Shown here piece after piece: positions 886 to 63,786 of a DNA stretch of 64,000 nt. Position 1 is the first letter of the stretch; each line of letters opens with the position of its first letter. A program made the translations under genes and the position numbers. The stretch is from Nannobrachium achirus (Eukaryota; Chordata; Actinopteri; Myctophiformes; Myctophidae), in assembly GCA_963921795.1 (NCBI GenBank), contig OY997647.1, forward strand, positions 60,290,357 to 60,354,356. Direction: 5' to 3'. Below the pieces are notes generated by a model, which worked only from the letters and a program-made list of their open reading frames with translations, made no database searches and was not told the DNA's origin.

Positions 886-1353
886 CAGCGGTCTTCAATG
901 TTTTCAGGCCAAGGACCCCTTAGCTGAGAGAGATGAAGCAGTCCCCCACAGCCTTTTCATAGATTCCATATAGTTTCATTGTTTGACAGCACGATCATCA
1001 GTGTATTTTGGATTCATGTCAGTTTGTGTTTTCATATATTTAACCACTTGAAACGTCAATAATTAATAAACTTGACCTTTCACTCTGTACTTAGTCTGCT
1101 CTTTTTCCCCTCTACACCAAACCTCTTTGCCAGAAATAGCCGATCTACAAGCTCACACCGCCTCGTGGCGTCGAGCTGAGCTTTTAGATCTGCTATTTTT
1201 GGCTAAAGTTCTCAGAATATGGACGCTAGGGTTCAAGTGGTTTATACAAAAAAAGGAGAAAAAAAGTTTCTTATCACACAACGATTTGGAGGACGCCCTG
1301 TAGTAACTCTGAGGACCCCCTAGGGGTCCCGGACCCCCTGTTGAAGACCTCTG
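886..1353. mobile_element. Family B hAT MITE, copy 1, with shared hairpin
   Basis: Terminal inverted repeats are cagcggtcttcaa and ttgaagacctctg. A perfect 8-bp duplication, ctatacaa, flanks it at 878-885 and 1354-1361, diagnostic of the hAT superfamily. The shared hairpin is at 1131-1205, with the left arm reading GCCGATC and the right arm GATCTGC. The stem continues outward on the right as ttttggcta, private to family B. Confidence 0.9.
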
Positions 1354-1361
1354 CTATACAA

Positions 1362-1686
1362 TGCCACTGGTTGGTGACATGCATCCACTTAAAGTGCTTT
1401 GATCACACAGATGATCTTTTCTGTCAAAAACAGTTTATTATTTCTGGCAGCACTTTTATCCTCTGCTGTTCTGTTTTGTAACGGGCCTCCCTCCCTCCCT
1501 TACCCACTTTCTTTCCATGGATCTTCTTTGTGCTTGGCAATCTAAAGACCGTGAGGAGGACGCACAGACCTTGTGGCGGTGGTATCTTCTCAACCGAAGG
1601 CTTTCGTTTCATGCTGCCACCTTCAAAGCACGTCTTGAAACGTACGTCACTCTTGCTGGATAGATCAAGGGAGAGGTTTCAGCCAC
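1362..1686. other. No gene or repeat recognised
   Basis: Non-coding sequence between elements B1 and A1. I see no splice-bounded open frame and no inverted repeat. Confidence 0.5.
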
Positions 1687-2168
1687 TTAACTCTCAAATA
1701 CCTGGAACGCGCCCGAGTCGCGTTAGATTTGAACCACTTTAACCATTATTTTATGCTTTAACTATTGAAAAATAGCAGATCTACAAGCTCACAGCGCGGC
1801 ACCGAGTGCCGCGCTGCGAGCTTGTAGATCTGCTATTTTTGAAAAATCGTGAAAATGTGTGCAAGTCTTTGAATATCTTTGACCCGATCTTTGACCCGAC
1901 TTCTAAATCCTTCCTCTAAATCAGCTGTTCTCAAACTTTTTCATGTCAAGGACCCCCAAAATTACATTTATTCGTCAGCAGACCCCCATCTCAAAATATG
2001 TTGTTCCAGGGACCCCCCAGAAGCAAATATTTGAGTTTCAAATGTTTGCTTTTAAATAGATATATTCAAAGACTTGTAAATAGCAGATCTACAAGCTCTT
2101 GTGAGCTTGTATATCTGCTATTTTTCAACAGTTAAAGCAGTCAATAATCCTAGGCCTAAATGGGTTAA
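1687..2168. mobile_element. Family A TTAA element with two hairpins, copy 1
   Basis: TTAA lies at both ends, and the right end reads cctaaatgggTTAA. Hairpins are at 1769-1840 (full, with a GC-rich loop stem) and 2078-2125 (shortened). Between them is a gaccccc-rich block resembling a hAT end. TTAA duplication with CCC/GGG termini points to a piggyBac-type transposase, by inference. Confidence 0.8.
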
Positions 2169-2501
2169 GGAATGAAACCGCCTGTGATGATGACGACGGC
2201 TCCCCTCGCCATCAAAGACGCACCCAACGCTTCAAGGTGAATATAGGAAGAAGATCATTAGTCACTTTATATGCTCTCCTTTAAGGAGTGATAAAGTGAC
2301 CTCAGACATCTAAGTCTCTCGTCGTCCAAGAGAGCGCTAGCAATTTAGCAATTACCACGCTCGTTGCATTTTCATTTGCAGTAGCTTCTTGACCATGACC
2401 TTGAAGCAGACTCCCCTTGGTCCTTTCTGGCAAACAGACTGATTTCCCTTCCCTCACTTATGCCTGATTTATTCCTCGGTCGTGCACAGTGTTGCACACC
2501 A
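2169..2501. other. No gene or repeat recognised
   Basis: Non-coding sequence between A1 and the solo hairpin at 2502; nothing else supported. Confidence 0.5.
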
Positions 2502-2546
2502 AAGATAGCCGATCTGCGCTGTGAGCTCGTACATTAGCTATTTTCG
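2502..2546. repeat. Solo shared hairpin, shortened
   Basis: A 45-base copy with left arm atagccgatctg and right arm ctcgtacattagctatttt. It is not inside any element whose ends I can identify. Confidence 0.55.
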
Positions 2547-2599
2547 TTGGTCGACAACGGCGCACAAGTACGTTGGGCTTCATTCTCTATTCAATTTAG

Positions 2600-2990
2600 T
2601 AGAGGTGGATATTAGCAAGAATCTCGCGAAGCAATACGTATCACAATATATCATGAATCTTTGTGATACGATACGATACTATTGCGATACTATTGCAATA
2701 TATCAGCTTTAAAAGCTGAAGGCGCTGCTCTAATGTTGTTGTTTTCGTCGTTCGCAGCCATTTTCTCACTTCTTTCTCACTGAACCGTGGGAAGGGGAAG
2801 TAGCTACTATAGTACAGCGACATCTAGGCAGCGGAGTGTCAGGACCAGACTTCTACCATAGCTTCCTATGCATGGGACCATATTTTATTTTTCTCAAAGT
2901 ATCGCGATACTACTGCCTGGAGTATCGATACAGTATTGGCAAATAAACTATTGTGATGTATTGCCATATCGATTATATTGCCCACCCCTA
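2600..2990. mobile_element. Family Y hAT MITE, copy 2
   Basis: Ends are tagaggtggatatt and cccacccctA, flanked by a perfect 8-bp duplication caatttag (2592-2599 and 2991-2998). Internal sequence matches copy 1 at 335-743. There is no shared hairpin, so it serves as a comparison family. Confidence 0.88.
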
Positions 2991-3090
2991 CAATTTAGCC
3001 AATTGCATGACGTGCATCAGTTCTCTTCCCAAGAGCACTACAATTTAGCCAATTGCATGATGTGCATCAGTTCTCTTCCCAAGAGCACTT
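2991..3090. repeat. Tandem duplication, 50 bp x 2
   Basis: 2991-3040 and 3041-3090 are near-identical. Each unit begins with caatttag, the same octamer duplicated by the Y2 insertion, so Y2 sits exactly at a unit boundary. Confidence 0.85.
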
Positions 3091-4021
3091 CTTTGTAACT
3101 TAACGCAAGGCTTTTTACCCCCAAAAAAGTATGATGCAACTCCCATGTGGTTCTGCCTGGAGTCCCAGAATGCATTTGAAGCCTTGTGCACTTTATTCTT
3201 CCATCACCTGTCAGTCATCCCAATGCCTTCTAAAGCTTGTCTGACAACTTGACAGGACATCTCTGCCAAAGATGAAAACTGAATCTTGACACCTTATTAG
3301 ACACCACTGCCTTCTTGCGCACACAGCGCGCGCGTGCGTGTGCGTGCGTGCGTGTGTGCGTGCGTGTGTGTGTGTGTGTGTCTGTTTTTGTGCATGTGTT
3401 GGAGGTTGATTGGGGTTTTCCACGGTGAGTTATTTGTTAGTGACTCGTCTCGTACACACAGAGCTGTAACAGCCTGACTGGTTGTCATACCACATCCTGA
3501 GCTCAGACTGTCATTGAGTTTGTGGGTTAGCAGGTTATGTTTCATAAACATCGTACTTCTTAATTACAGGTTATTTTTCTTTCTTTATGTTTTGTTTGGG
3601 GGGGCGGGGGTGCAGCAGTCTGGAAATGGCAGATGGAGGTTGTTCTGAAGGGATCTTGATATTTTTCGGTATTTGTGTTATGTGGAAAGAATGGCAAAGC
3701 AGCGTAAATGTCAGGCAGCTTTTCTCAACGACTGCCTTGGCATTTCTGTTTGTTTGTGATGGCTTTTCAAATGGATCATTAGTGGGTCTAAGTTTATCCA
3801 TCACCTCACACAATCAATACCAGCAGTTAAAGGCTAACTCTAGTATAATAAAGCAGAACTGGACTTTAGCGGCTGGTTCCATTTGTTTTATGCTTTCAGA
3901 GTAAAATATACACTCACACACTTCATTGTGTTTGCCTATTTTAATCCTGTTGTATGAATGCAATGAATAGAAAGTAGGATATTTCCAAGCTCTGAAGTAA
4001 TGATGTTTTCTCGAGTGGATA
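3091..4021. other. Non-coding, with a GT/GC microsatellite
   Basis: A degenerate (GT)/(GC) run occupies about 3327-3381. Open frames here are low-complexity or lack splice context. Confidence 0.5.
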
Positions 4022-4622
4022 TTAAGGCATTTAGGCCTCGAATGATAGATTGAATGCTTTAACTATTGAAAAATAGCAGATATACAAGCTCACAGTGCGG
4101 CACCGAGTGCCGCGCTGCGAGCTTGTAGATCTGCTATTTTTGAAAAAAGTCTTTGAATATATGTATTTTTAAAGCAAACGTTTGTAACTCAAATTTTGCT
4201 TCTGGGGGGTCCCTGGAACTAAATATTTTGAGATGGGGGTCCATGGCCAAATACATGTCATTTTGGGGGTCCTTCACATGACAAAGTTTGAGCACCACTG
4301 ACACAGTAGTCTCTCAAGAACGGACCAACTGAGCTCCAGTTCAAGTGAAAAGGACCTTTTCATTGACGATGGCTGGCCAGATTGCTGACATACTGTAGAA
4401 ACATAGGTTTTTCAAAAAACCTTAGAAGGATTCAAAAAACACTAATAGAATAGAGTCAAAATTCCAATTTTCACGTTTAAAATAAATAAATAAATAATAC
4501 ATCTACCAGCTCGCAGCGTGGCACTCGGTGCCGCGCTGCGACCTTGTATATCTGCTATTTTGCAATAGTTAAAGCATAAAATAATAATACACAATAATGC
4601 GTACCTGGTCTAAACAGATTAA
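4022..4622. mobile_element. Family A TTAA element with two hairpins, copy 2
   Basis: TTAA at 4022-4025 and 4619-4622. Hairpins are at 4069-4141 and 4495-4561; the second has lost the start of its left arm. The interior carries the family A gaccccc block. Confidence 0.8.
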
Positions 4623-4741
4623 ACGGCTGGGTGTTATTTGACTCAATCCTTTTTCTTCTTTATAACGTTGCCAGTGGACGTGCCAGCACCGTCTTTAATC
4701 TCGGGCCCTACGAGGCCGCATAGAGCCAGTTCTGTTGGAAC

Positions 4742-5190
4742 CAGGGGCGTCACACCAAATTCTGGGCCCTGGGTACAAGGATTCACTGCGGGCCCCCCAT
4801 GAATGTTAACTATTGAAAAATAGCAGATATACAGGCTTGTAGATCTGCTATTTTCGAAAAATTGTGGAAAAAGTGTGCAAGAAACCCATGTTTCCATGTC
4901 AGTGATGCTCAAACTTTTTCATGTGAAGGACCCCCAAAATTATATGAATTTGGCCACGGACCCCCCATCTCAAAATATTTAGTTCCAGGGACCACCCAGA
5001 AGCAAAATTTGAGTTACAAACGTTCGCTTTGAAAATACATATATTCAAAGATTTGCACACATTTTTCACGACTTTTTCAAAAATAGCAGATCTACAAGCT
5101 CGCAGCGCGGCACTCGGTGCCGTGCTGTGAGCTTGTATATCTGCTATTTTTCACTGGTTAAAGCAGTCAATAATTCTTGGCCTAAATGGG
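4742..5190. mobile_element. Chimeric element: family U left end, family A right end
   Basis: The left end (cagggg cgtcacacc) and the next 60 bases match family U. The right end (cctaaatgggttaa) matches family A. Hairpins are at 4815-4855 and 5079-5151. The unit is bracketed by a ~49-bp direct repeat of host sequence at 4695-4743 and 5191-5240, far longer than an 8-bp or TTAA duplication. Confidence 0.75.
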
Positions 5191-5240
5191 TTAATCTCAG
5201 GCCTTACGAGGCCGCATAGAGCCAGTTCTGTTGGAACCCA

Positions 5241-6189
5241 GGAAGAACGTTTGGCCTTACGGCTGGGCTGTTTTTATTTATGCAGAAGATACGCTGCTCG
5301 AGCCCGGCTTGGAAGAAATGATTCTCCTGTGGAAAGATCTCAGACCACCGTGTAGGTTGTTGTGGCCTCACATTTATGATAATACACCCTGAAACTGGAT
5401 AGTGTTCAGTTATATTGCAGAAGTCTTGGCTGGTTGATACTGCCAAGGGCTTTGATTTGTTGGAGCCGGTTTGTGCATAGTGGGCTTTTGTTTAGCACGA
5501 TGGCTCTCGGCCATATGACTCCAGCTACTCAGGAAGATTATAGTGTTTCCCTGCCACCTATTGCTCCCTCTTGACCTCGGAGTGACCTTGGAATGGATCA
5601 AAGAAAAGGCAGCTTTTTTCTTTTTCTTTGAGTGGACTCAGGTAGCTTCCCAATCCCTTCATTGTATGTGGAATGTATGTGAAGGAATGTGTATGAACAC
5701 TTGGTATTCAACTGTTCAAAATGCTGTTTAGTTTCCTTTTAGCAAAATCAATGATTTTTAATTAATTGATATTAAGATCTAGTTGCTTAATTCAAGTAAG
5801 CCTTGCCGAGCCATGAGGCCCGTATCGCAGGAGCCTATCTCCTGTTTCTGCAGTGTGAGGCAGCTTGATGTACAAGTACACCCCTGGACATGACGCTAGT
5901 ATATCAAACCCTTGATGCTGAGTGTCAAGCATAGACCTTAGAAAATATGGATGGTGGGAAGCGATGAAGTCACCATTGGTTTCTATCAGCGAAAATGAAG
6001 CTTTTTTTGCCTCATGTGGGTGTCTGCTTCATTGTATTAATGGTACCCAAGGAAGGCTATTGGCTGCCAAGGGTCACGTGCAACCGCAGGGATACTTGGG
6101 AGCTTGCAGAGAATAAAGCAGGCGAAGAAGAAGGAGGGCGGGACCTACGGTCTATGGGTGTAGATGAGAATGATAAGCTTTATCATCAG
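5241..6189. other. No gene or repeat recognised
   Basis: Unique non-coding sequence. Several short open frames, none with recognisable protein similarity or splice context. Confidence 0.5.
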
Positions 6190-7071: not shown

Positions 7072-7138
7072 TTATGTGGTGCGGTGTGGTGTAGTAGTGT
7101 GGTGTGGTGCTAAAGCTGCAGTGGAAAAGGGGCTTTAG
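7072..7138. repeat. Family K end fragment
   Basis: The gtgtggtgctaaagctgc and ggaaaaggggctt words match, in reverse orientation, the left end of the K element at 19174-19240. The remainder of K is absent. Confidence 0.55.
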
Positions 7139-7740: not shown

Positions 7741-7774
<34 letters not shown>

Positions 7775-8178: not shown

Positions 8179-8631
8179 CAGGGGTCTTCAACAGAGGGTC
8201 CGGGACCCCTAGGGGCTCCTCAGAGTTTCTACAGGGGGTCCTCCAAATCTTCAATCCTTTTTATATTTACAACTGAACCCTAGTGTCCATATTCTGAGAA
8301 CTGTAGCCAAAAATAGCAGATCTACAAGCTCACAATGCCTCGCGCTGCAAGGAGTTGTGAGCTTGTAGATCGGCTATTTTTTGGCAAAGAGGTTTGGTGT
8401 AGAGGGGAAAAAGAGCAGACTAAGTACAGAGTGAAAAGTCACGTTTATTAGGTAATGACGGCCCAAGTGGTTAAATCTGAAAACTCAATTGACATGAATC
8501 CAAAATACACTGATTGTGCTGTCAAACAATGAAACTATGGAATGGAATCTATGAACAGGTCGTGGGGGTCCCTGCTTCATCTCTCTCTCTCATCTAAGGG
8601 GTCCTTTGCCTGAAAACATTGAAGACCCCTG
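8179..8631. mobile_element. Family B hAT MITE, copy 2, with shared hairpin
   Basis: Ends caggggtcttcaa and ttgaagacccctg, with a perfect duplication acttagag (8171-8178, 8632-8639). It lies opposite to copy 1. Accordingly the hairpin at 8304-8384 shows GCAGATC on the left and GATCGGC on the right, the mirror of copy 1. Stem arms extend as tagccaaaaa / ttttttggc. Confidence 0.9.
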
Positions 8632-10946: not shown

Positions 10947-11337
10947 TAGGGCTGTCACGATTATGACATTTTACATGACGATTATTTGTCACTCAAATAA
11001 TTGCGATTAACAATTTAATTGTGTTTTTGTCGTTGACAATTACATTTCTCTTTGGCTTTTAGGCTTTTAAGTTGCACATGGTAGATATGACACATAACCT
11101 AAATATACAAAGATATTCCTCACATATTTAACAACATTATACTTAAAAAAGAACATTGATAGTGGAAATAGCCGATCTACAAGCTCACAACGCGTCGCGA
11201 TTCCACTATTTTTGACTTTTCTTTTTAATATATGAACATTTTTCAACATGGAAACGATTATGACGATTATGAAAAATAATCACGATTATTTCAAAAAATC
11301 ACGATTAGACGATTATGTCATAATTGTGACAGCCCTA
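10947..11337. mobile_element. Family E hAT MITE, copy 1, half hairpin
   Basis: Ends tagggctgtcacgatta and aattgtgacagcccta, with a perfect duplication tataagaa (10939-10946, 11338-11345). The hairpin at 11161-11209 keeps its left arm, and a stub ttccactattttt replaces the right. The flanking stem word is gtggaaatagc. Confidence 0.9.
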
Positions 11338-14726: not shown

Positions 14727-15154
14727 CAGGGATGGGACGATATGAAAATTTCATATCACGATAATTGTCACAAAAGAAATCGCAATTTACGATAATATCC
14801 CAATAATCAAAATCCATTATCCTGGGGCGGAACATTTGCCAAAAAATAGCAGATCTACAAGCTCACAACGCGTCACGTTGTGACACGTTATGAGCTTGCA
14901 GATCGGCTATTTTTTGGCAAAGACATTTGATTGAGAGTGAAAAAAAGACTGTATCAAGTATGTATATTATAAGTACCTTTTAACAATTATAGAGGGTTTA
15001 AGTGGTACCGGATATGCAGCTCGGCAAATAAAAGGTGAATTGATCCCAGTGCATGACAGAGGACGATATCACTATAAATTAAATCTCCACGATACGATTA
15101 TCCTGAGTGTTTTTTATCACGATGAACGATAATATCGCGTATCGTCCCATCCTG
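14727..15154. mobile_element. Family D hAT MITE, copy 1, with hairpin
   Basis: Ends cagggatgggacgatat and tatcgtcccatcctg. The hairpin at 14836-14920 has arms extended by family-specific ttgccaaaaaatagc / gctattttttggcaa. Polarity is GCAGATC left, GATCGGC right. No clean 8-bp duplication. Confidence 0.85.
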
Positions 15155-15838
15155 GTGAACTTCAACTTCAGCCAAGAGGTGTTTGTATCCCATGCTGCCT
15201 TGGCTGCACAGTGTGGATGAACATCCATCTACTGTGCCTGCGCTGAGTGCTCAACATGGATGATGTCCCGTGTAATAAGTAATTTACCATCCACTTGATT
15301 AATTCATCCTCTGTGTTCCTTCATTTCCAACTGTAATGTAGCCTCTTATTCATGTTCTGATTAAATCTTAAAAGACTCTGATGTCTGGCCTCTTGAGGTA
15401 TCCGGCTGCAAGACTCTTCTCACTGTTGTACTTGATCACAATTTGTGCCGACACTGGAGTTCAGAAAATAATTTGACCCCATAACGGAGTTAAGTGCCAT
15501 GCTCCAAACTAGTATTCATCATCTTTGGTCTCATCAAAGAAGTTGACCTCAAAGTGTATCCTCTCTCCCCCTTTTTTTTTTAATGATCAGCATTTCAAAT
15601 TTCTTTTTTTTTTAAACCACTGAGATCTCTGGATTTTTATCTTGAGACAAATCAGCAATGCATACTTGCCATGTAACGACTGTTGCCGTAGTGGTTTATC
15701 TTAATTATGTGAGTCGTTTTTGCAGATCAACTAACTAATCGATTTAATGGATTATTTAATTGCGACTGTAGGTCGCAAGTTTACTATGAAAGCGGTCACA
15801 GCTTTCTGTGTGTATCTCTGTCTGTCACGCCTGACACT
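15155..15838. other. No gene or repeat recognised
   Basis: Non-coding stretch with short T runs near 15570-15615. Confidence 0.5.
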
Positions 15839-25434: not shown

Positions 25435-25975
25435 CAGGGGTGTCGCACCAAATCCTGGGCCCCTGGGTACAAGGATTCACTGCGGGCGGGGCCCCCCATG
25501 AATGTTCTTCATAGGGGGAGGGGGTTTAGCCCATTTAGACTGGGAACGCATTATTTACGCATTATTTTGTGCTTTAACTATTTGAAAAATAGCAGATATA
25601 CAAGCTCGCAGCGCAGCACCGAGTCCCGCGCTGTGAGCTTTTTAAAGTCTTTTTGAAAAACCTATGTTTCTTTGTCAGTGGTGGCTCTGGTGCTCAAACA
25701 TTTTCGTGTGATGGACCCCCAAAATTACATTGACCCCATCTCAAAATATTTAGTTCCAGGGACCGCCCAGAAGCAAAATTTTAGTTACAAATGTTCGCTT
25801 AAAAAGTACATATATTCAAAGATTTGCAGACGTTTTAACAACTTTTCAAAAATAGCAGCGCTGTGAGCTTTTAGATATGCCATTTTTCAATAGCTAAAGT
25901 ATTAGATAATTAAGGCACCCTCCACCTTGGGCCCTAGTAACTCAGTCCCACTTTCCCCCCCTTGTGACGCCCCTG
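25435..25975. mobile_element. Family U hAT-like element, copy 1, with A-type interior
   Basis: Ends caggggtgtcgcacc and ttgtgacgcccctg. The interior from about 25530 is family A-like, with damaged hairpins at 25586-25640 and 25848-25887. Flanking octamers gctggctg and cccgcctg agree at 5 of 8. Confidence 0.7.
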
Positions 25976-27381: not shown

Positions 27382-27774
27382 TAGGGCTGTCACGATCATG
27401 ACGATTAATTGCGATTAACGATTTAATTGTGTTTTTTGTCGTTGACCATTACATTTCTGTTTGGCTTGTAGGCTTTGAAGTTGACATGGCAGACAGTGAC
27501 ACATAACCTAAATATACAAATAAATGAAGGACATATTTGACAACTTTACAAAAAAGAACATCGATAATGGAAATAGCCGATCTTCAAGCTCACAACGCTT
27601 TGCGATGCGACACGTTGTGAGCTTGTAGATCTGCTATTTCCACTATTTTCTAAATGTTTGAACATATAGAAACATTTTTCAACATGTAAATGATTATGAC
27701 GATTATCACAAAATAATTGCGATTATGTCAAATAATTGGGATTAGACGATTATGTAATAATTTTGACAGCCCTA
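27382..27774. mobile_element. Family E hAT MITE, copy 2, with full hairpin
   Basis: Ends tagggctgtcacgatc and ttttgacagcccta. Hairpin 27567-27643, with left GCCGATC, right GATCTGC and family-specific tggaaatagc / gctatttcca arms. No clear duplication. Confidence 0.85.
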
Positions 27775-30343: not shown

Positions 30344-30947
30344 TTAAACCCATTTAGGCCTGAACACATTATGACGCAATATTTTATGCTTTAAATATTT
30401 AAAAAATAGCAGATATACAAGCTCACAGCGCGGCACCGAGTGCCGCGCTGCGAGCTTGTAGATCTGCTATTTTTGAAAAATCGTGAAAATTAGAATTTTT
30501 ACCCCATTCTATAAGTGTCTTTTGAATCCTTCTAAGGTTTTTGGAAAAAACCTATGTTTCTATGTCAGCAATCTGGCTTAGCCATCATCAAAGAAAAGGT
30601 CCTTTTCACTTAACTGGAGCTCAGTTAGTCTGTTCTTGAGAGACTGCTATGTCAGTGGTTCTCAAACCTTTTCATGTGAAGGACTCGCAAAATGATATTT
30701 ATTTGGCCACGGACCCCCATCTCAAAATATTTAGTTCCAGGGACCACCCAGAAGCAAAATTTTAGTTACAAACGTTCGCTTTGAAAATACATATATATTC
30801 AAATATTTGCACACATTTTCACAACTTTTTCAAAAATAGCAGATCTACAAGCTCGCAGCGCGGCACTCGGTGCCGCGCTGTGAGCTTGTATATCTGCTAT
30901 TTTTCACTGGTTAAAGCATTCAATAATTCTAGACCTAAATGGGTTAA
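30344..30947. mobile_element. Family A TTAA element, copy 6, complete
   Basis: The best reference copy. TTAA at 30344-30347 and 30944-30947, with inverted ends catttaggcct / cctaaatggg. Hairpins 30403-30473 and 30833-30904 are mirror images: the first has GATATAC in its left arm, the second GTATATC in its right arm. An internal cagtggttctcaaacc resembles a hAT terminus. Confidence 0.88.
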
Positions 30948-31032
30948 TGTTGACACTGAGACACATTGTTGCATTCGGGTCTGGCCTGGAATTCAACCTG
31001 GAACAACCGGGGCCTCTGGCTTCCCTCTAATC

Positions 31033-31405
31033 CAGTGGTTCTCAACCTTTTCAGTCCGCGACCCTCAACATAATCATATTTTAACTGGGGAACCCCCACC
31101 CTACGAGTACTAACAGTTGAGGCATAACATTTTGTATAACACGGTGGGAAAATAGCAGATCTGAGCATGTAGATTGTCTATTTTCACAATTTCTGCCTCT
31201 AATATTTGACAATTTGTCCAATGTTTAATTTGTCATTTCAGAGGTACTAAAAAGTCCTTAAATTGTCACTTTAGAAATGTGCAGATACCCTCTATACACT
31301 TAAACTTTATGATGGTTTGTTTACATTAAGTCAATCATCTGGGGACCCGCCAAAATTATTTGGGGACCCCCCTGGGGGTCCCTTCCCACAGGTTGAGAAC
31401 CACTG
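31033..31405. mobile_element. Family F hAT MITE, copy 3, shrunken hairpin
   Basis: Ends cagtggttctcaacctttt and ggttgagaaccactg. The hairpin has collapsed to 31149-31187 (gcagatctgagcatgtagattgtct), losing most of the left arm. Confidence 0.82.
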
Positions 31406-35682: not shown

Positions 35683-36153
35683 CAGGGGTTTTCAAAGTGG
35701 GTGACGGCAGTCCAGGGGTGCCGCGAGATCATTTGATAGTATTTGAAATTTATTTGGACACTTGAAAAAATATTTAGTATCATTTTAAACTTGAAGTAGA
35801 AAGTTATTTCCAGTCAGTTCTAACCAAAATGGCTATTATCTCAACGTTTTCCTCGCAACATAATCACTAAAATATCGTCACTGTCGGGCAGAAACCTCGT
35901 ATCTCCAAGTTTCAAATGTGTACGTTTTTTGGTAAAGCAAAGCCCTGCTTTATCATCATGAAAACAGCCGATCTTTTAGATCGGCTGTTTTCACTAGTTT
36001 TGTACACGGTTTTGGACGTACAAAGTTCCACCCGACAACGACGATATGCTATTAATATAAGGTGCTGGGAGTGAAAATTATAATGGAGGGGTGCCTCGGA
36101 TTAAAAAATATATTCATGGGGTGCCCTGAGACAAAACAGTTTGGGAACCCCTG
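35683..36153. mobile_element. Family C hAT MITE with minimal hairpin
   Basis: Ends caggggttttcaaagtggg and gtttgggaacccctg, with a perfect duplication ctctagag (35675-35682, 36154-36161). The hairpin has shrunk to 35959-35993: gaaaacagccgatc, two spare bases, then its complement, losing the whole acaagc stem. Confidence 0.9.
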
Positions 36154-37592: not shown

Positions 37593-38196
37593 TTAACCCA
37601 TTTAGGCCCGGGATTATTGAATGCTTTAACTATTGAAAAATAGCAGATATACAAGCTCACAGCGCGGCACCGAGTGCCGCGCTGCGAGCTTGTAGATCTG
37701 CTATTTTTTTTTTTTTTAAGTCGTGAAAATGTGTGCAAATCTTTGAATATATGTACAGTATTTTTAAAGCGAACGTTTGCAACTCAAATATTTGCTTCTG
37801 GGAGGTCCCTGATACAATATTTTGAGATGGGGGGTCTGTGGCCAAATACATATAATTTTGAGGGGTTGAGAACCACTGACACAGTAGTCTCTCAAGAACA
37901 GACTAACTGAGCTCCACTTAAGTGAAAACTAAAGGACCTTTTCTTTGACGATGGCTAGCCAGATTGCTGACATAGAAACATCGGTTTTTCCCAAAAAAAA
38001 ACCCTTAGAAGGATTCAAAAGACACTTAATGAATCGGGTCAAAATCGGGACAAAATTCTTAATTTTCACGATTTTTCAAAAATAGCAGATCTACAAGCTC
38101 GCAGCGCGGCACTCGGTGCCGCGCTGTGAGCTTGTATATCTGCTATTTTTCAATAGTTAAAGCATAAAATATGTGTACCCGTTCTGCATGGATTAA
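37593..38196. mobile_element. Family A TTAA element, copy 8
   Basis: TTAA at 37593-37596 and 38193-38196. Hairpins 37638-37709 and 38078-38151, both with full GC-rich loop stems. Confidence 0.85.
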
Positions 38197-40129: not shown

Positions 40130-41083
40130 TTAACCCATTTAGGCAGAGATTATTGAATGCTTTAGCTATTGAAAAATAGCAGATATACAAGCTCACAGAG
40201 CGGCACCGAGTGCCGCGCTGCGAGCTTGTAGATCTGCTATTTTTGAAAAGTCATCATGGCAATGTGTGCAAATCGTTGTATATCATATTTTTTTGTATTT
40301 ATATATATATAAATATTTGCTTTTGCTTCTTCCATTGACGTAGAAACATGTGTTTTTCAAAAAAACCTTCGAAGGATTCAGAAGACACTTATAGAATCGG
40401 GTCAAAATCTGGTCAAAATTCAAATGTTCATGATTTTTAAAAATAGCAATTAAGTGCCTCGCTGTGAGCTTGTAGATCTGCAATTTTTTTAAGTTAAAGC
40501 ATAGGATAATTATACGCAATAATGCGTACCCGGCAGTGTTGATTTTGTCAACTAAAACTATGACAAAAAATGTTTGTCGACTGCGCTTTTTTCACTGACG
40601 AAAACTAAATAAAAACTAAATAAAGGCTAAGCTGTGATGACTAAAACTAAGACTAAATATATTGACAATTTCATCCACAAAATAAAAACTAGACTAAAAT
40701 GTTGGGGAGGGACAAGTGGAGAAGAGATTATGTTTGGTTGCTCTCAGGTGTTGCGTGTGGAAAATAGCCGATCAACGCGTCACGCTGCGGCGCGTTGTGA
40801 GCTTGTAGATCAGCTATTTTCAGCACGCAAACAAGTGTAAAATCAGTCATTATGATGCCATCAAGCCCTGCCAAAATGCATTTCAGTTGACTAAATCAAC
40901 TGTAGATTTAGTCGCCTAAAACCTTATGATATTCAGTCAACTAAAACTCGCCTAAAACCAAAACTTTTTAGGTGCCAAAATTATGCCTAAAACTAAATGA
41001 CATTTTATTCAAACGACTATGACTAAAACTAAATCAAAATTTGCTGTCAAAAACAACACTGGTACCCGTTCTACAAGGCTTAA
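40130..41083. mobile_element. Family A TTAA element, copy 9, interrupted by I
   Basis: TTAA at 40130-40133 and 41080-41083. Hairpins 40173-40245 and 40439-40489. I1 is inserted in its right end at a gtacccg word. Confidence 0.85.
40534..41061. mobile_element. Family I hAT MITE with hairpin, nested in A
   Basis: Ends cagtgttgattttgtcaac and tgtcaaaaacaacactg. Octamers gtacccgg and gtacccgt agree at 7 of 8. Hairpin 40754-40828, where the loop-proximal stem is acgcgtcacgctgcggcgcgt. Outer arms gtgtggaaaatagc / gctattttcagcac are private to I. Confidence 0.88.
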
Positions 41084-48765: not shown

Positions 48766-49593
48766 TAGGGATGGGACGATACTCCATATTATCATTTATC
48801 GTGTAAAAAAAACAATCATGATAATCGTATTGTGGAGATTTAATTTATCGTGATATCGTCCTCCGCCATGCACTGGGATCAATTCACCTTTTATTTGCCG
48901 AGCGGTATATCCGGCCGGTACCACTTAAACCCTCTATAATTGGTAAAAGGTACTTTCTTGACTATACTATATTCAGTCTGAACTTGGTCTAATCTAAGGC
49001 AATTTCAAGGATGGGCGTTGCCAAAGAGGCAGTCTTCTGCGATTGGTTCACCGTCTGACCAACACAACAGTAGCAAAGCAGATGACGTAGTGTTGTTATG
49101 TGTGGCTGGCTAGTGGCTAGCCTTTTGCTTGCTAGTGCTACTTGCTAACCAAAGAAACAGCAGGAATAGGAGCACAACGAATTAGTAATCAAACACAACA
49201 TTACATGTCTGCTACTGATGTTTCATAGCGACGATCGCATTTTACCGCAATTTACCGCATTTTACCGTGACGCGATGTGTGCGGTCCCGTCCGGCGGCGG
49301 CGAATTGCACATGTTTCTGGGAAATCCCCACCCACGCTGATCACAAGACGCTGATTCACAACGCTGATTCGCCTTACGGATTTTCAAATGAGGAAAGCCT
49401 CTTCGATGAGAGCAATTCTAGACTCCTGAATCGCCAAAACAAAAAATTTAAAGGGGTGTGGCTAGCGATTCAGGGTCTGGAACTAGGCTACCGCCCCAGG
49501 ATAATGGATGTTGATTATCGTGTAATATCGAAAATCGTGATTTCTTTTGTCACAATAATCAAGATATGACATGTTCATATCGTCCCATCCCTG
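48766..49593. mobile_element. Family D hAT element, longer copy without hairpin
   Basis: Ends tagggatgggacgatac and tatcgtcccatccctg. Octamers gctgcgtc and gctgcatc agree at 7 of 8. Both arms align with D2. The middle 48957-49490 is a different ~534-bp sequence with a + open frame (49267-49569) that I do not recognise. Probably closer to the parental transposon. Confidence 0.85.
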
Positions 49594-49841: not shown

Positions 49842-50229
49842 CAGTGGTTCTCAACCTGTGGGTCGGGTCCCCAAATTGTTTTGGGGGGTCCCCAGATGAT
49901 TAACTTAATGTGCAACATTGTTTTCTCACTCAACAGTAAACAAACCAACATAAAGTTTAAGTGTATATAGAGGGTATCTGCACATGTCTAAAGTGACAAT
50001 TTAAGGACTTTTTAAACATTGGCCAAATTGTCAAATATTAGAGGCAGAAATAGCCGATCTACATGCTCACAACGCCTCGCGTTGCGAGCATGTAGATCGT
50101 CTATTTTCACAATGCAACCGTGTTATACAAAATGTAATGCCTCAACTCTTAGTGCTCGTCAGGGTGGGGGTCCCCAGTAAAAATATGATTATTTTAGGGG
50201 TCACGGCCTGAAAAGGTTGAGAACCACTG
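49842..50229. mobile_element. Family F hAT MITE, copy 5, complete
   Basis: Ends cagtggttctcaacctg and ggttgagaaccactg, with a perfect duplication ttctagag (49834-49841, 50230-50237). Hairpin 50048-50106 with acatgctcac / gagcatgt stem, a T-for-A change typical of F. Confidence 0.92.
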
Positions 50230-50461: not shown

Positions 50462-50941
50462 TAAGGCATTCACAAATAGTGATTTTTAGTATTCGAATTA
50501 TTCAACCTCATTAGTATTCGAATAGTCGAATATTCGACAGGACTGGCCAAACTGTCAAATATTAAGTAAGCAAGAGGCAGACATTGTGAAAATAGCCGAT
50601 CTACATGCTCACAACGTTGCAAGGCGTTGTTGTGAGCATGTAGATCTGCTATTTTCACAAAATGTATCTGCGGAACCGAGTCCCAGTTCAAATATGTTTA
50701 TTTTGGGGCTCACAGCCTAAAAAGGTTTGAGAACCCCTGGTATAGAGCATTAACAAATTCATCCACCAGGGGCATTGACAACTCATTCTTATGACTTCCT
50801 ATCTAGCCAAGCTTTATAAACTATATATTTTTTAAAGAGAAAACAATAAAAAAATTAAAATAAGCGAATATTGGACTTCGGTGAACAACGTCGAATAGTG
50901 ACTTTGATATTCGAATATTTGAATATTTGGTGAATGCCTTA
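50462..50941. mobile_element. Family T hAT element hosting an F fragment
   Basis: Ends taaggcattcacaaatag and tatttggtgaatgcctta, with a perfect duplication gtgggaac (50454-50461, 50942-50949). The middle 50544-50739 is F sequence. Confidence 0.88.
50544..50739. mobile_element. Family F fragment with hairpin, inside T
   Basis: Hairpin 50584-50660 (ccgatctacatgctcac ... gtgagcatgtagatctgc) and right end gagaacccctg. The left F end is missing. Confidence 0.75.
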
Positions 50942-53091: not shown

Positions 53092-53650
53092 AGCTCTGGT
53101 CCATCGTGTCACTTCCTGGTGACGCTCTGACAGAACCGTCGGCAAATGGCTAGACCCCAGTATCTCAGCCCCTCCGAGCGCTCAACTTCAGTCAAAATAA
53201 ACAAAACTACTTCACTACTCACCAAACCAAAGGTAGTTTTGCGTTGTTGAAAGTCTATTCTCCGCGGTGGTAAACCTCTCAGCACCCCACCTACTCTGTA
53301 AAATACATTATTTTTGTCATGAAATAAAATGCACCCACCTCGAGCCACCTAGCGACCACCGCAGATACAATGGTTCACAACCCGGAAATAAGCGGCGGTC
53401 GAGTTGGATGCACTTTATTTCATGCCAAAAATTGTGTATTTTGCAGAGTGGGTGGGGTGCTGAGGGGCTCACCACCGCGGCAAATAGACTTTCAACAACG
53501 CAAAACTACCTTTGGTTTGGTGAGTAGTGAAGTAGTTTTGTTTATTTTGACTGAAGTTGAGCGCTCAGAGGGGCTGAGATACTGGGGTCTAGCCATTTGC
53601 CGACGGGTCTGTCAGAGAGTCACCGGGAGGTGACGCGATGGACCAGAGCT
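53092..53650. mobile_element. Family EE foldback element
   Basis: Two ~265-bp arms (about 53092-53360 and 53380-53650) are inverted copies ending agctctggtccatcg / cgatggaccagagct. Each arm holds a mirrored open frame containing VGGVLRG and TTFGLVSSEVVLFILTEVE, 79 and 87 codons. The frames look like a by-product of arm identity. Confidence 0.85.
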
Positions 53651-58583: not shown

Positions 58584-58692
58584 GTTCAACTACAGATCGA
58601 CGCATCATCTCACCACCAATGGCTTCTACGAGTTCCTTAATTGGTTCGACGAGAGAGCGTGGTACCCGCTGGGCAGGATCGTCGGGGGCACG
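58584..58692 (+). CDS. stt3b: Internal coding exon of STT3B, oligosaccharyltransferase catalytic subunit
   Basis: STT3B is a multispanning ER membrane protein that transfers the lipid-linked glycan to asparagine in N-glycosylation sequons. Seen: a pyrimidine-rich tract ending in CAG precedes the exon and GTAAGG follows it. The exon begins with the last base of a split codon and then encodes 36 residues, starting FNYRSTHHL and ending [11 protein letters not shown], with no stop. Family knowledge: FNYR directly follows the conserved acidic first-loop motif of STT3 proteins, and the RSTHHL and [20 protein letters not shown] wording matches STT3B rather than STT3A, which has RTTRFL-type sequence. 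The downstream phase is 0. Neighbouring exons were looked for on this strand and not found, so the exon is flanked by long introns. The upstream side carries a SINE within 240 bases. Only this part of the gene is visible. Confidence 0.93.
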
Positions 58693-59143
58693 GTAAGGTT
58701 TTTTTGGCGCTCGGCTCCACTGCTGTGTGTGCAGTCTTTAGACTGGGCTAGAGAAATGATCTGACGATTGGAGAAGCTGTTTTCCTATATATATGCGTTG
58801 AGGTCCTGCATTTTACATGAGTGCTGGTGAGAGCTCTGCCTGGGCTCTCAGGAATTGTTTAGAAAAGTGTGACAGCAAGTGCAGGATAAGTGGCGACTGG
58901 CGAGTTGGAAGGATCGTAACAATCGCTACTGCTGCTGCCGAGGGCGGCTGCAGCAGCAGCCGTGTGCAGCTCGAACCACTCCATAAAACATGGGGAAGAA
59001 ACCTCCTTTATATACCAGTCATTATACATACGTTGGGAGTCACAACTGGGTCAGAGAGTATTTGGACATATTTCTAAGCATTTTATAGCCGTCACATACG
59101 GTATTGCCCTGATGGCTAGGGCTTTTACTGAGTCTGTTTAGAC
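58693..59143 (+). other. stt3b intron, no repeat recognised
   Basis: Begins with the donor gtaagg. Contains a gctgctgccgagggcggctg hairpin-like stretch near 58932. Otherwise unique. Confidence 0.6.
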
Positions 59144-59599
59144 CAGGGGTCTTCAACAGGGGGTCCTCAGAGTTACTACACAGGGTCCTTCAAATCTTTG
59201 TTTGATAGAAACTTTTTTTCTCCTTTTTTATATTAACCACTTGAACCCTAAGTAACGTTCATATTTTCTGAGAACTTTAGCCAAAAACAAGCTCACAACG
59301 CCTCGCGCTGCGAGGCATTGCGAGCTTGTAGATCGTCTATTTTCGGCACAGAGGTTTGGTGTAGAGGGGGAAAAAAGAGCAGAGTAAGTACAGAGTGAAA
59401 GATCAAGTTTATAAAGTATTGAAGGCTCAATTGGTTACATATCTGATAACACAAATTGACATGAATCTAAAATACACTGATGATTGTGCTGTCAAACAAT
59501 GAAACTATATGGAATCTATGATAAGGTAGTGGGGGGTCCCTGCTTCATCTCTCTCTCAACTAAGGGGTCCTTGGCCAAAAAAAACTTTGAAGACCCCTG
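59144..59599. mobile_element. Family B hAT MITE, copy 5, with hairpin
   Basis: Ends caggggtcttcaac and ttgaagacccctg. Octamers gtttagac and atttagac agree at 7 of 8. The hairpin at 59279-59346 has lost the outer left arm (atagcagatct). Confidence 0.88.
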
Positions 59600-59729
59600 A
59601 TTTAGACTATTCAAAGTGTCATGCATGTTGTCGATCACACAACATTTTTTTTACACTTTCAGTTCAAATACCTTCCTTAGTTTTTCGGAACTTATTTTCC
59701 TGTGTGGAGATGTGGGATGTAGTCTGGGG

Positions 59730-60249
59730 CAGGGGTTTTCAAAGTGGGTGACGGGGCACCCTGGGGTGACGGGGCACCCTGGGGTGCCGCAACGGCAGTC
59801 AAGGGGTGTCGCGAGATCAATTGATAATATTTGGAATTTATTTGGACACTTGAAGAAATATTTAGTATCATTTTAAACTTGAAGTACAAACATATTTTCA
59901 GTCAGTTCTAACCAAAATGGCTATTATCTCAACGTTTTCCTCGCAACACAATCACTAAAATATCGTAACTGTCAGGCAGAAACCTGTCGCACAAAACTAG
60001 TGAAAACAGCCGATCTACAAGCACACAACGCCTTTGTGTGCTTGTAGATCTGCTGTTTTCACTAGTTTAGTAAATTTTATAGATGATAAATACAAAACGA
60101 ACGGTTTTGGACATGCAAGGTTTCCACCCGACAACGACGATATGCTATAAATATAAGGTGCTGGGAGTGAAAATTATAATGTAGGGGTGCCTCGGATGAA
60201 AATAATATTTATAGGGGTGCCCTGAGACAAAAAAGTTTGAAAACCCCTG
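59730..60249. mobile_element. Family C hAT MITE with hairpin, complete
   Basis: Ends caggggttttcaaagtggg and agtttgaaaacccctg, with a perfect duplication gtctgggg (59722-59729, 60250-60257). A short tandem ggggcaccctggggtgac sits at the left. Hairpin 59996-60066. Confidence 0.92.
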
Positions 60250-60450
60250 GTCTGGGGGGGTTCAGGTGAGGTGCTTTAGTGCTTTATACCCTCCCCTCCC
60301 ATCCCAATGCACTTGCTGGACAGCGTGAGTCCCATCCGTCCTGGGACAGTGATGGGGTACAAGCACGGTGATCTGGATGGGTACTCGCTCCTCCGCTGTC
60401 ACAGGAGGCAAGACCTGCCTGTTTACCAACTGCTGCACAGGTTGTGGAAG

Positions 60451-60975
60451 CAGGGGTGTCACAAGGGGGGAGTGGGACTGAGTTACCAGGGCCCAAGGTG
60501 GAGGAGGGGCCTTAATTATTTTATACTTTAGCTATTGAAAAATAGCAGATATACAAGCTCACAGCGCACGCTGCGAGCTTGTAGATCTGCTATTTACGAA
60601 AAGTCGTGAAAATGTGTGCAAAACTTTGAATATATGTATTTTTAAGCGAACATTTGTACTCAAATTTTGCTTCTGGGAGGGTCCCTGGAACTAAATATTT
60701 TGAGATGGGGGGTCCGTGGTCAAATACATATAATTTTGGGGGTCCTTCACATGAAAGGTTTTGAGCACCACTGACATAGAAACATAGGTTTAAAAAAGAA
60801 AAAACATTTGAAATATTTCAAGATTTTTCAAAAATAGCAGATCTACAAGCTCGCAGCGCGGCACTCGGTGCCGCGCTGTGAGCTTGTATATCTGCTATTT
60901 TTCAATAATTAAAGCACAAAATGTGAAGTGAATCCTTGTACCCACCAGGGCCCAGAATTTGGTGCGACACCCCAG
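60451..60975. mobile_element. Family U hAT-like element, copy 3, with two hairpins
   Basis: Ends caggggtgtcacaagg and gcgacaccccag. Octamers tgtggaag and tgtgtgaa agree at 6 of 8. Hairpins 60537-60594 and 60830-60903 with family A flanks, so U carries an A-type interior between hAT ends. Confidence 0.78.
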
Positions 60976-61381
60976 TGTGTGAAAGTGCAACATTTTTCGG
61001 TGTGAAGAATTACTGCCTGCCGATGGCGGGTCGTTTATCTCCTGATTGTTTCCCCCTGCCTTCTGTCTGCAGCCGGCTGCCACCAGGGAGCTGGACTGTG
61101 TGAGGCACAAACGCAAACGCTTTTTGTTGGCCAAGTAGTTTTATGACCGGGGAATTTACCTCTGTGGATTCCTCGATGATCCAAACAAATCTTTTTTTTA
61201 ACAGTTTTACTGCCAGATGTTATTATTTATTTATTGGGTTTGGTGCCAGCAAAAGCACCTTACCTTTGCGACGTTATAGACAAAGATGTATTCATTTTTT
61301 TTTTTGTATTATTATTTTCTTTTCTCATTAAATAGATGTACTTTGGCTATACTGGCAGTAGAGGGCAGCCTCATGCAAGAA
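60976..61381. other. No gene or repeat recognised
   Basis: Unique intronic sequence with T runs near 61190 and 61296. Confidence 0.5.
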
Positions 61382-61680
61382 TTAATGTGAAATGGCCGCG
61401 GTCGGCTCCCATCCGTCCAGGCCACTAAATCGCTACAGAGCAATAGACCCAGAGAAAATAACAAGGAAGTGTTTTGTTACTCCATTGATGCTAACGTCCA
61501 GTGGGTTTTTGAGAGCACTATTACGGGAGATGTGTTAACGGTACACACCCGCGCGACCCCTCATCAGTTTACAGACATCAAAACAAGGTACAAAAGAACG
61601 AGCCAAAGAACGTACTATTGGTGGCGTGCCGCCGTGAAAAATTGGGCGAACGGGAACGTCCAAAGCGGTAAAAGAGTTAA
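61382..61680. mobile_element. TTAA-bounded GC-richer unit HH
   Basis: TTAA at 61382-61385 and 61677-61680, but the adjoining bases are only weakly inverted. A + open frame (61469-61684) is not recognised. Single copy in this window. Confidence 0.3.
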
Positions 61681-61801
61681 GTGAAGAGACGTCTGAGAAG
61701 TAATAACACTGTCTCATGTAAATGTAGACGTCTTGGCCTAAGGGTGGCGCTCTTGGGTTCATCATGAAGGTGCACGGCAAATTCCATAACAAGTCTGTAT
61801 C

Positions 61802-62179
61802 TAGGGATGGGACGATATGAAAATGTCATATCACGATTATTGTGACACAATAAATCGCGATTTACGATATTATCACGATAATAAAAATCCATTATCCTGG
61901 GGCAGGAAAATTCGCCAAAAAATCGCAGATCTACAAGCTCACAACCTAGATCACAACGCGTTTGCAAAGACTTTTGATAGAGTGAAAAAAAGACTATCAA
62001 GTACATATATTATAAGTACCCTTTACCAATGAAGGGTTTAAATGATACCGGATATGAACTGAATTGATCCCAGTGCATGACGGAGGATGATATCACGATA
62101 AATTAAATCTCCACAAAACGATCATCGTGAGTGTTTTTTTATCATGATAAACCATACTATCGCTTATCCTCCCATCTAC
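61802..62179. mobile_element. Family D hAT MITE, copy 4, half hairpin
   Basis: Starts agggatgggacgatat near a ctgtatct octamer; ctgtatcc follows at 62180-62187, 7 of 8 matching. Hairpin 61914-61970 keeps the left arm only. Confidence 0.82.
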
Positions 62180-62444
62180 CTGTATCCATCCAGATAACTT
62201 TGGGACAAAAAGTGGACGGATGAAAGGATGGTCCGACATTGCCATCCGTTGAGCCCTGCCGCTAGTGTGGCTAAAAATGGAATTTAAAACAAAAAAAAAA
62301 ATGTAAGGAAAGGGAATAGGTTCACCTAAATACAGAGAAAGGCTGCATCTAAACTCTGAAGAGGAAACAAGCTGCTGGCAAGAGTGTACTGCACGTAGGT
62401 GTATGGTACAGAACATATTGTCAGCGCCATGTAATTGTCTAATC

Positions 62445-62902
62445 CAGGGTTGTTCGACAGGGGGTCCCGGACCCCTAGGGGGGTCCTCAGAGTTACTACA
62501 GGGGACCCACCAAATCTTTGTGGTAGGATCATTCTTTTAAATGAACAACTTGAACCCTCGCATCCCTATTTTGAGGAGAACTTTAGCCAAAAATAGCAGA
62601 TCTACAAGCTCTCAACTCTCAGCGCGAGGCGTTGAGAGCTTGTAGATCGGCTATTTTCAGCAAATAGGTTTGGTGTAGAGGTAAAAAAGAGCAGACCAAG
62701 TACATAGTGAAAGGTCAAGTTAACCAAAAACACGAATCCAACATAGACTGATGACAGTGCTGTCAAACAAGTATATGAATAAATCTATGAAATCGATGAA
62801 AATCTGCATCACACATCTAAACAATATGTAGAGGGGGTCCCTGCTTCATCTCTCTCTCAGCTAAGGCAGGGGTCCCTGGCCTGAAAACGTTGCAGACCCC
62901 TG
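62445..62902. mobile_element. Family B hAT MITE, copy 6, with hairpin
   Basis: Ends cagggttgttcgac and ttgcagacccctg. Octamers gtctaatc and gtcttgtc agree at 6 of 8. Hairpin 62584-62658 has a changed loop-proximal stem (ctctcaa ... ttgagag) still fully paired. Confidence 0.85.
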
Positions 62903-63612
62903 GTCTTGTCTCTTAATAATAACACATATGACTATAATAATGACAATAAACGTAAGAGATCGTGAGAACCGACATGTAGAATTTGTCCACAGGCTATATA
63001 ATTGCAAGGTGCACTCGTGTTCGTGTATAATGCACACCCAGTTCATGGAAGTAGTGTGGTTTATAATTCATGACAATATGTTACTGCAGCCACGATGAAC
63101 CATAGAATACTTTTATAATGTCAAGTTCAATATTTGGATGACGATGGACGTATAAGTGTGTTCGCGACCGTCAGGTCGCAGTTACTATTTTTGCCCCTGC
63201 ACTTATCTCTGGCACCGTTGGCCCTATCGATGCCAAACTTTGCACACACACTCCTTGGATGGCAAATCACAACCTCCGCCCCTGATTTCTCACATGGCCC
63301 TCTTCTAGCGCCACCGTCAGGCCGATTCTTGCAATACACATTTTTGGACACTGCTCCTACAGATTTTGCCCTAAAATCACGCAAAGTGGTACACAGTATC
63401 TCTAAAGTCATGTCATCAACATGGATCTGTCCCTTTTCCCATATTCTCTACTGATTGGCTACCATCGCCTTCTAAAGTTTGTGTGTGCAACGTGGCGGTC
63501 GCTTATCTCCAGATTAGGGAGTCTTACTGGTAATGCAATCTGAGCACATTGGTCATGAGAAAATCAGTACAACACTTAGCAGTTATTTACTCAGAACGGA
63601 CATGCTCTAAGT
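62903..63612. other. No gene or repeat recognised
   Basis: The + open frame at 63134-63454 has no recognised similarity or splice context. Confidence 0.45.
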
Positions 63613-63786
63613 CAGGGGTTCACTCCCAGCACCTTTATACTGTATATTTATAGCATATTGTCGTTGTTGGGTGGAAACTTGTATGTCCAAAACCTTTCGA
63701 TTTCTATTTATCATCAAAAAAAATTACTAAACTAGTGAAAACAGCCGATCTACAAGCACACAACGCCTCGCATCGCGAGGCGTTGA
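63613..63786. mobile_element. Family C fragment, half hairpin
   Basis: caggggtt is followed directly by the cactcccagcacctt interior, an internal deletion. Inner C words lead to the left hairpin arm (63731-63786), then unrelated sequence. Confidence 0.7.

Follow-up and report, generated by a model that had tools for sequence, protein, structure and literature searches.

A hairpin shared by miniature transposon families of Nannobrachium achirus and, in tested cases, carried by elements nested in hAT transposons

A stretch of 64,000 nt from Nannobrachium achirus (OY997647.1; hereafter the window) contains one palindromic hairpin in many short mobile elements, which raises the question of how a single hairpin came to lie both in miniature inverted-repeat transposable elements (MITEs) of the hAT type, flanked by 8-bp target site duplications (TSDs), and in MITEs bounded by TTAA. 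An initial annotation of the window had proposed at least twelve unrelated families with only the hairpin in common, differing transposition chemistry that excluded a shared origin, and repeated acquisition of the hairpin as a module. Here, the palindrome is considered probably to be the internal hairpin of short non-autonomous transposons, and its presence in hAT MITEs to be due to the insertion of these carriers. At least two types of carrier exist, TTAA-targeting MITEs and a TA-targeting MITE of approximately 240 bp.

Abundance of the hairpin and its carriers within hAT elements

The hairpin arm (AGCAGATCTACAAGCTCACA) was used as the search pattern and the reversed arm as the control. At up to five mismatches, the window contained 101 arms in 61 clusters, whereas 20 dinucleotide shuffles of the window gave 0.55 on average and at most 2, and the reversed arm had no match; the roughly sixty recurrences noted initially were thus confirmed, in numbers far above those in shuffled sequence. 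At up to two mismatches 73 arms were found, whereas at up to six there were 107 matches in 64 clusters, of which some of the weakest are chance matches, the shuffles averaging 5.45. The whole genome (1,658,514,493 bp) contained 293,019 forward and 292,676 reverse arms at up to two mismatches (585,695 in total; reversed control, 1 and 0), and arm density was approximately threefold higher in the window. Among loci taken from the genome outside the window (numbered with the prefix L), 20 were random 10-kb stretches, and 19 of these contained the arm at up to five mismatches (all but L022). A tRNA or Rfam-family origin was rejected, the window having no match to either (at gathering score for the Rfam models), and the exact string GATCTACAAGCTCACAACGC had no match in the viral or the prokaryotic collection.

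Grouping of 146 hairpin modules by their flanks (blastn, E ≤ 1e-4) yielded 11 multi-copy groups and 30 singletons. The 61 window clusters belonged to groups 0 (28), 1 (6), 2 (5), 3 (6), 5 (1), 6 (3), 8 (3) and 10 (1), with eight single copies. Two members of group 1 (L024:7204 and L027:9015) appear misplaced, and group 9 includes a tandem array. As initially reported, the palindrome occurred in hAT elements with 8-bp duplications: nine accepted window elements with terminal inverted repeats (TIRs) and TSDs (7 or 8 of 8 bases) contained it, one of which (at 50462) begins with TAAGGC and not with a CAG-like end. It also occurred in a TTAA-bounded element (30344-30947).

Group-1 hairpins sit within the TA-targeting MITE (TIR TCGTCGTTGTCGGGTGGAAACC, short form TCGTCGTTGTCGGG), of which the examined loci contained eight two-ended copies of 222-258 bp, seven with the hairpin (one with half only). 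A copy of this MITE is nested in the hAT element at 59730-60249. The empty site predicted from that filled copy had 458 + 458 = 916 genome matches (≤3 mismatches; control, 0), and a filled-junction 35-mer had 1,622 + 1,611 = 3,233; the two patterns differ, so that this ratio is rough. The empty site has one TA and the filled site two, as expected of a TA duplication. Four empty-site loci were read (L045-L048). Two of them are hairpin-free hAT copies of 319 bp (L045) and 333 bp (L047) with perfect 8-bp TSDs (ACCTATTA and GTCTAAGG, respectively), and L046 is contiguous through the insertion site, without called hAT ends. In L048 the hAT element is empty at the first site and has, at another TA, the left half of a TA MITE cut at the hairpin centre. 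Accordingly, the hairpin-bearing MITE probably inserted at least twice into this one hAT family.

Some other hairpin-lacking copies were not counted as empty sites. Those of the first sample proved to be contracted hairpins or decayed copies, and the centre had been replaced at 48769-49591 in the window and in the TA MITE L015:5213-5454, whose entire centre, including the hairpin, was exchanged for a piece of another repeat (2,876 genome matches). Separately, the TA MITEs L015:1482-1718 and L019:6984-7219 have a second surrounding repeat in common (GAGCAGCAACAACACTAGTATA ... AGTAGCGGGAAC), likely an additional host family.

In group 3, the carrier is of the TTAA type. Most of the 11 aligned copies read, in order, hAT end, TTAACCACTTGAACC, hairpin, GGTTCAAGTGGTTAA and hAT end, and the hairpin initially assigned to the hAT element itself therefore belongs to a TTAA MITE nested inside it. 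A 34-mer spanning the hAT/MITE junction had 23,713 genome matches (≤3 mismatches; control, 0), and the TTAA end alone, searched at the same threshold with a different pattern (a 30-mer), had 21,075 (control, 0); the same end was present in an unrelated flank in L004. The joined hAT flanks, representing the predicted empty site, matched the genome twice. One match (L029) is a decayed filled copy, whereas in the other (L030) the hAT element is uninterrupted with a single TTAA (flanks CTGTAGGG/CTATAGGG; 92% identity in the left part and 98% in the right), another element being inserted further on.

The TTAA carriers have short inverted termini (TTAACCACTTGAACC or TTAACCCATTTAGGCC), and TTAA duplications with TIRs were found in both the inner element of group 3 and the group 0 element. 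Group 0, the source of 28 of the 61 window clusters, comprises TTAA- and hAT-bounded copies with common flanks and interior (by eye and by BLAST grouping), for which the notion that only the hairpin is common fails; the hAT-bounded reading of 25435-25975 and 60451-60975 is less secure since their duplications have decayed. An internal hAT-like end (CAGTGGTTCTCAA and similar) was also observed inside group 0 elements (30653-30665 and 37866-37878), perhaps a further nesting layer.

Taken together, the carriers lie within hAT MITEs and the resulting composites number in the thousands; nesting within multiplied hosts explains why one hairpin occurs in hAT families with unrelated flanks. Differing transposition chemistry does not exclude a shared origin where this could be tested, the TTAA and TA MITEs being nested in hAT elements. 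Repeated acquisition is supported by the empty sites of two hAT families, one of which also has a second insertion site, although in these cases the hairpin came as a passenger of whole MITEs and not as a bare module. The composites would have been amplified by hAT transposases, after which the ends of the nested carriers, no longer needed, may have decayed. The presence of the same hairpin in TTAA and TA carriers would most likely go back to earlier nesting, the inner ends having since been lost.

Hairpin anatomy and maintenance

The arm sequence is AGC[A/C]GATCTACAAGCTCACA. In the window and loci L001-L028, the spacing between arms was exactly 21 bp in 45 of 85 pairs and 22 bp in five, and mostly shorter than 21 bp in the remainder; full-length copies with the 21-bp spacing were found in each of groups 0-8 and in group 10. 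The flank adjoining the arm begins with ATTT or GTTT in 88 of 119 flank representatives. As these 88 were picked for that start, positions 1-4 are high by selection; further outward, information falls from 1.18 bits at position 5 to 0.60 at position 6 and 0.18 at position 7 (0.30 at position 13), and is near background beyond approximately 20 positions. A perfect stem nevertheless extends 9-13 bp past the arm in six family consensuses, with family-specific letters (e.g. GTTTTCACTA, ATTTCCACTAT and ATTTTTTGGCAAA). Families also have changes of their own on both arms (AGCACACA in group 1, CTACATGC in group 2 and GACCTCC in group 7). Self-insertion of the bare hairpin was rejected, the adjoining extensions being inverted repeats in the six consensuses; direct repeats beside the hairpin were not seen by eye, without a systematic test.

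Covariation was assessed on the 45 full-length modules and on a subset of 24, which omits 18 modules of group 0 as well as 29622, L010:5979 and L025:5401. Within the subset, 87.7% of cells were paired (79.9% when shuffled; 30.9-44.9% in slid controls), with 92 double-change cells compared to 42.4 in shuffles. Watson-Crick pairs occupied 92 of 144 cells in the outer six pairs (shuffled maximum, 69) and 176 of 216 in the inner nine (165). Over all 45 modules, the Watson-Crick total was 1,517 of 1,845 cells (shuffled maximum, 1,433), with an excess in the outer six (143/270; 129), the next six (247/270; 231) and the inner nine pairs (338/405; 297) but not in the arms (789/900; 791). For the 22 modules outside group 0, the outer six (82/132; 68), the next six (119/132; 110) and the arms (384/440; 379) exceeded the shuffled maximum, whereas the inner nine fell below it (142/198; 145). 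The outer stem thus covaries among families, and the excess in the inner pairs depends on the contrast with group 0, which weighs against the explanation proposed here.

Among the 45 full-length modules, 19 had an unpaired arm position 4; outside group 0 the proportion was 19 of 22. Such a common mismatch speaks for a single origin of the hairpin in these families. The group-1 arm had 81,184 genome matches (≤2 mismatches; control, 0). Among the first 100 matches listed, 24 head-to-head pairs were counted by hand, of which 17 combined A with C, five had A on both arms and two C on both; 23 of the 24 had one geometry.

Shortening was examined in 42 hairpin copies of six groups located through their flanks alone. 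More than half (25) were shorter, i.e. more than 6 bp below expectation (one of them, L015:5213, being the replaced centre), 15 were within 6 bp and two were longer, although the hairpin of one of the latter (27575) is full length. The junctions, as judged by eye, differed between all shortened copies of a family, and full-length copies nevertheless persist in all six groups. This fits loss after insertion, with new copies founded mostly by full-length ones. The majority consensus points the other way in several groups, with 61 bp in groups 1, 5 and 6 but 58 in group 8, 51 in group 2 and 54 in group 3 (extended to 61 bp for the stem, divergence and shortening comparisons).

Non-CpG divergence from consensus was lower in the arms (63/1309, 4.8%) than in the flanks (655/7972, 8.2%; paired p = 2e-4), a contrast weakened by the 34% of 126 flank windows that were conserved as well as the arms of full copies and by the derivation of the consensuses, for the most part, from these very copies. 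The comparisons therefore give no more than a hint of constraint or homogenisation of dead copies. The hairpin would be kept as a hairpin, its outer stems differing by family yet staying complementary, probably because each arm can template the correction of the other and because source copies whose hairpin is intact amplify better. A bolder suggestion, put forward tentatively and seen as possible but not likely, is that selection favours the hairpin as a portable amplification module: whichever MITE acquired it, via TTAA, TA or hAT carriers, would multiply better, the extruded hairpin with its near-base mismatch would aid replication-coupled copying or end synapsis, and arm correction would regenerate it and tailor the outer stem to each family.

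Two side observations concern tandem repeats. Exact arms lie at multiples of 45 bp in an array at G000:C1:3708151-3708575, and the half-arm CAGCTTGTAGATCTGCT occurs in a 25-bp array at L003:593-737; the hairpin may have seeded small satellites.

Flanking lineages and competing explanations

In anchored alignments, 11 between-group pairs scored at least 30, compared to 0 and 1 in the controls (3,592 pairs each). These linked group 0 with 4, group 3 with 8 and single copies, group 5 with a group-9 copy, and two singles with each other. The links between group 1 and L012:2589 (score 40, AT-rich) and between group 4 and L026:7971 (31) were less convincing, and the groups were not merged; cross-group BLAST links, most of which arose from nested elements or from adjacent modules with overlapping flanks at a single locus, were not taken as homology. 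Judged from these alignments, about eight multi-copy lineages with unalignable flanks remain. The number of families, initially given as at least twelve, depends on sensitivity.

Several points weigh against nesting as the explanation. The empty-site proof is limited to two hAT families, and in group 3 a sole clean TTAA empty site, which may be ancestral or the product of precise excision, stands against more than 20,000 filled junctions. TA was present at both sides in just three of the eight TA elements, and the MITE at the second site in L048 lacks its right half, so that its target duplication is uncheckable. The TTAA and TA carriers have no recognisable likeness except the hairpin, and in groups 2, 5, 6 and 7 a profile search found no TTAA-type end, TA-type and other ends not having been sought systematically. 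This profile was trained on nine typed ends, including those of group 3 and the restored end of group 8; its significance in these two groups is by construction, and it was used only as a negative elsewhere.

An autonomous hairpin-bearing element, moreover, was not found: in eight loci read (three with masked bases) out of 116 scored piggyBac-type (DDE_Tnp_1_7) transposase matches among 952 candidates, no TTAA pair reached 11 of 14 matches. Under a relaxed criterion, only weak pairs appeared, in L035 and L038. Arms were present in L035 and L036, in the latter within a neighbouring group-5-like MITE, and the hairpin was not found as part of autonomous piggyBac elements in the eight loci. The TTAA carriers may belong to piggyBac or to Kolobok. 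Among the transposase matches listed, at least 16 lie within approximately 0.5 Mb (G000:C2:71346413-71843994), 15 of them without internal stops.

The lack of TTAA-type ends in the four groups and of any other likeness between TTAA and TA carriers would be expected if the bare hairpin had passed from one MITE to another, unrelated one through template switching or gene conversion at extruded hairpins, with no nesting of whole elements. The fairly sharp conserved edge (from 0.60 to 0.18 bits between positions 6 and 7 in the 88 representatives) and the swapped centre of L015:5213-5454 also favour such transfer, as does the lower divergence of arms than flanks, with the weakening noted above. It is nonetheless rather doubtful: wherever boundaries could be tested, what had moved was a MITE having ends and a target of its own, and the family-diagnostic changes on both arms suggest long residence within families and not recent copying. 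Either nesting with end loss or direct hairpin transfer may account for groups 2, 5, 6, 7 and 10 and for the hairpin common to TTAA and TA carriers.

Plain descent from a single ancestral hairpin MITE, with termini replaced and filler diverged past recognition, is improbable. The residual homology between groups in the anchored alignments (3 with 8, 0 with 4, 5 with the group-9 copy) is consistent with it, as are the similar hairpin-to-end distances in several hAT elements and the TTAA-type ends that recur on the outer side of the hairpin (26 of 240 half-flanks, in several flank clusters; 2 in the inverted control and 2.8 in the shuffled one). For the group-1 host it is refuted by the hairpin-free copies, which have intact TSDs and a single TA where the MITE would be inserted, together with the 916 empty-site matches; this host did not inherit the hairpin from a common ancestor.

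Convergence of the arms on a sequence-specific binding site for a host factor or transposase, which the letter conservation of approximately 20 bp per arm and the recurrent 21-bp spacing (45/85 pairs) would suit, is scarcely credible, as identical arms, length and mismatch position (19/22 outside group 0) are too much for convergence, and complementarity, which a duplex half-site does not need, is held in the outer six pairs where letters differ (92/144 against 69; 82/132 against 68 without group 0).

The coordinates of the window features are given in Table 1. In the group 2 element at 49842-50229 inner carrier ends were not found, and the element at 50462-50941 encloses an apparently truncated group-2 element with a hairpin at 50594-50650. 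Group 8 showed one decayed TTAA-type end (GGTACCACTTAAACCC) in its three-copy consensus. The termini CAGTGGTTCTCAAC and CAGGGGTCTTCAAC of hAT MITEs are presumably Charlie-like. Rows of the TIR/TSD scan at 4184-5017, 25656-25657 and 30460-31162 were dropped as chance, and the TTAA pairs at 4063, 37630 and 46959 were judged false. Two further observations were made. A hAT-type element (CAGGGGTCCCCAAACT ends, 168-aa open frame) lies within one arm of a group-2 hairpin at L021:6768-7520, with ATGTAGAT on both sides, and the window contains, at 53092-53650, a 252-nt inverted repeat (92% complementary, 55-nt spacer) without hairpin arms.

Table 1. Window positions of hairpin-bearing elements, nested carriers and hairpin copies.
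Positions	Strand	Feature	Details
886..1353	+	hAT-type element, group 3 host	TIR CAGCGGTCTTCAAT/CAGAGGTCTTCAAC; 8-bp TSD CTATACAA twice
1040..1244	+	Hairpin-carrying TTAA MITE nested in the hAT element 886..1353	ends like TTAACCACTTGAACC; right TTAA mutated
1138..1194	.	Hairpin module copy	arm position 4: C on one arm, A on the other
8179..8631	-	Group 3 hAT composite	TSD ACTTAGAG twice; full-length hairpin 8315-8375
10947..11337	+	Group 6 hAT-like element (TAGGGCTGTCACGA)	TSD TATAAGAA twice; contracted hairpin at 11170
14727..15155	-	Group 8 hAT-like element (CAGGGATGGGACGATA)	hairpin 14848-14908
25435..25975	+	hAT-bounded composite	TTAA-type end TTTAGCCCATTTAG beside first hairpin; TSD decayed
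27575..27635	.	Group 6 hairpin, full length	
30344..30947	+	Group 0 TTAA element (CCCATTTAGG termini)	hairpin near each end: 30408-30468, 30838-30898
35967..35986	-	Remnant of contracted group 1 hairpin	between TA-MITE ends 35873 and 36046
37642..37702	.	Group 0 hairpin, full length, near-perfect arms	
40534..41061	+	Group 5 hAT element (CAGTGTTG)	TSD GTACCCGG/GTACCCGT; hairpin arm 40796-40815
49842..50229	-	Group 2 hAT element (CAGTGGTTCTCAAC)	TSD TTCTAGAG twice; hairpin 50052-50102
50462..50941	+	Element with TIR TAAGGCATTCAC	TSD GTGGGAAC twice
59144..59599	-	Group 3 hAT composite	TSD GTTTAGAC/ATTTAGAC; hairpin arm 59319-59338
59730..60249	+	hAT element (CAGGGGTTTTCAAA), TA MITE host	TSD GTCTGGGG twice
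59963..60140	+	TA MITE nested in 59730..60249	TIR TCGTCGTTGTCGGG-like, left variant TCGTAACTGTCAGG; contracted hairpin 60008-60054
60451..60975	+	hAT-bounded group 0 relative (CAGGGGTGTCAC ends)	imperfect TSD; hairpins 60544-60591, 60836-60896

Relation to known elements

Literature searches, covering titles and the starts of abstracts, did not reveal any earlier description of this hairpin, or of a single hairpin common to several MITE superfamilies, and the strings gatctacaagctcaca and tgtgagcttgtagatc did not occur in the searched literature. The hosts resemble hAT MITEs in their 8-bp duplications and hAT-like TIRs, with hairpin-free copies in one family, but the hairpin of the two families tested is a passenger within a nested element and not a part of the hAT element. 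The TTAA carriers resemble piggyBac-like MITEs in having TTAA at both ends, short inverted termini and one single-TTAA site; they differ in that an autonomous partner with matching termini was not found in the eight transposase loci.

Angel and related fold-back MITEs of fish and Xenopus, reportedly described by Izsvak et al. in 1999, are said to be palindromes over the whole element and within one family, and the original description is said to have proposed that internal hairpins aid MITE amplification. Their termini are of the TTAAAGG type. The carriers described here end in TTAACC or TCGTCG, and an Angel-like pattern had no match in the window, which argues against membership. One Angel-like inverted-repeat element (TTAAAGGGCCAGTTC..., TTAAAGGGCCAGTTCACCCC; L021:7605-7913) was observed without hairpin arms, nested in the same group-2 hAT element as the insertion at L021:6768-7520. 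Angel-type elements are alike in being high-copy, non-autonomous inverted-repeat elements of fish able to form stem-loops. Compensatory stem changes are described for two Angel copies in long non-coding RNAs (lncRNAs; PMC3636048). The present case differs in that one hairpin is common to families with differing ends and targets, by nesting in the tested cases.

The abundance of the hairpin constitutes a natural experiment: its full-length form is known and its copies are very numerous, so that contraction, arm correction and template switching are measurable, and the system offers a way to test whether internal hairpins help MITE amplification. More generally, a short structured sequence can spread via cut-and-paste elements with different targets by riding nested MITEs, and a common core with different ends does not require capture of a bare module. 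Short interspersed elements (SINEs) provide a parallel, as highly conserved domains occur in them and the V domain lies inside a MER6 mariner MITE (PMC6887750). There, as here, a short conserved domain occurs in otherwise unrelated mobile elements and crosses classes inside a composite; here, by contrast, it is a DNA hairpin with a covarying outer stem, in DNA transposons of three target kinds, within one genome and in hundreds of thousands of copies.

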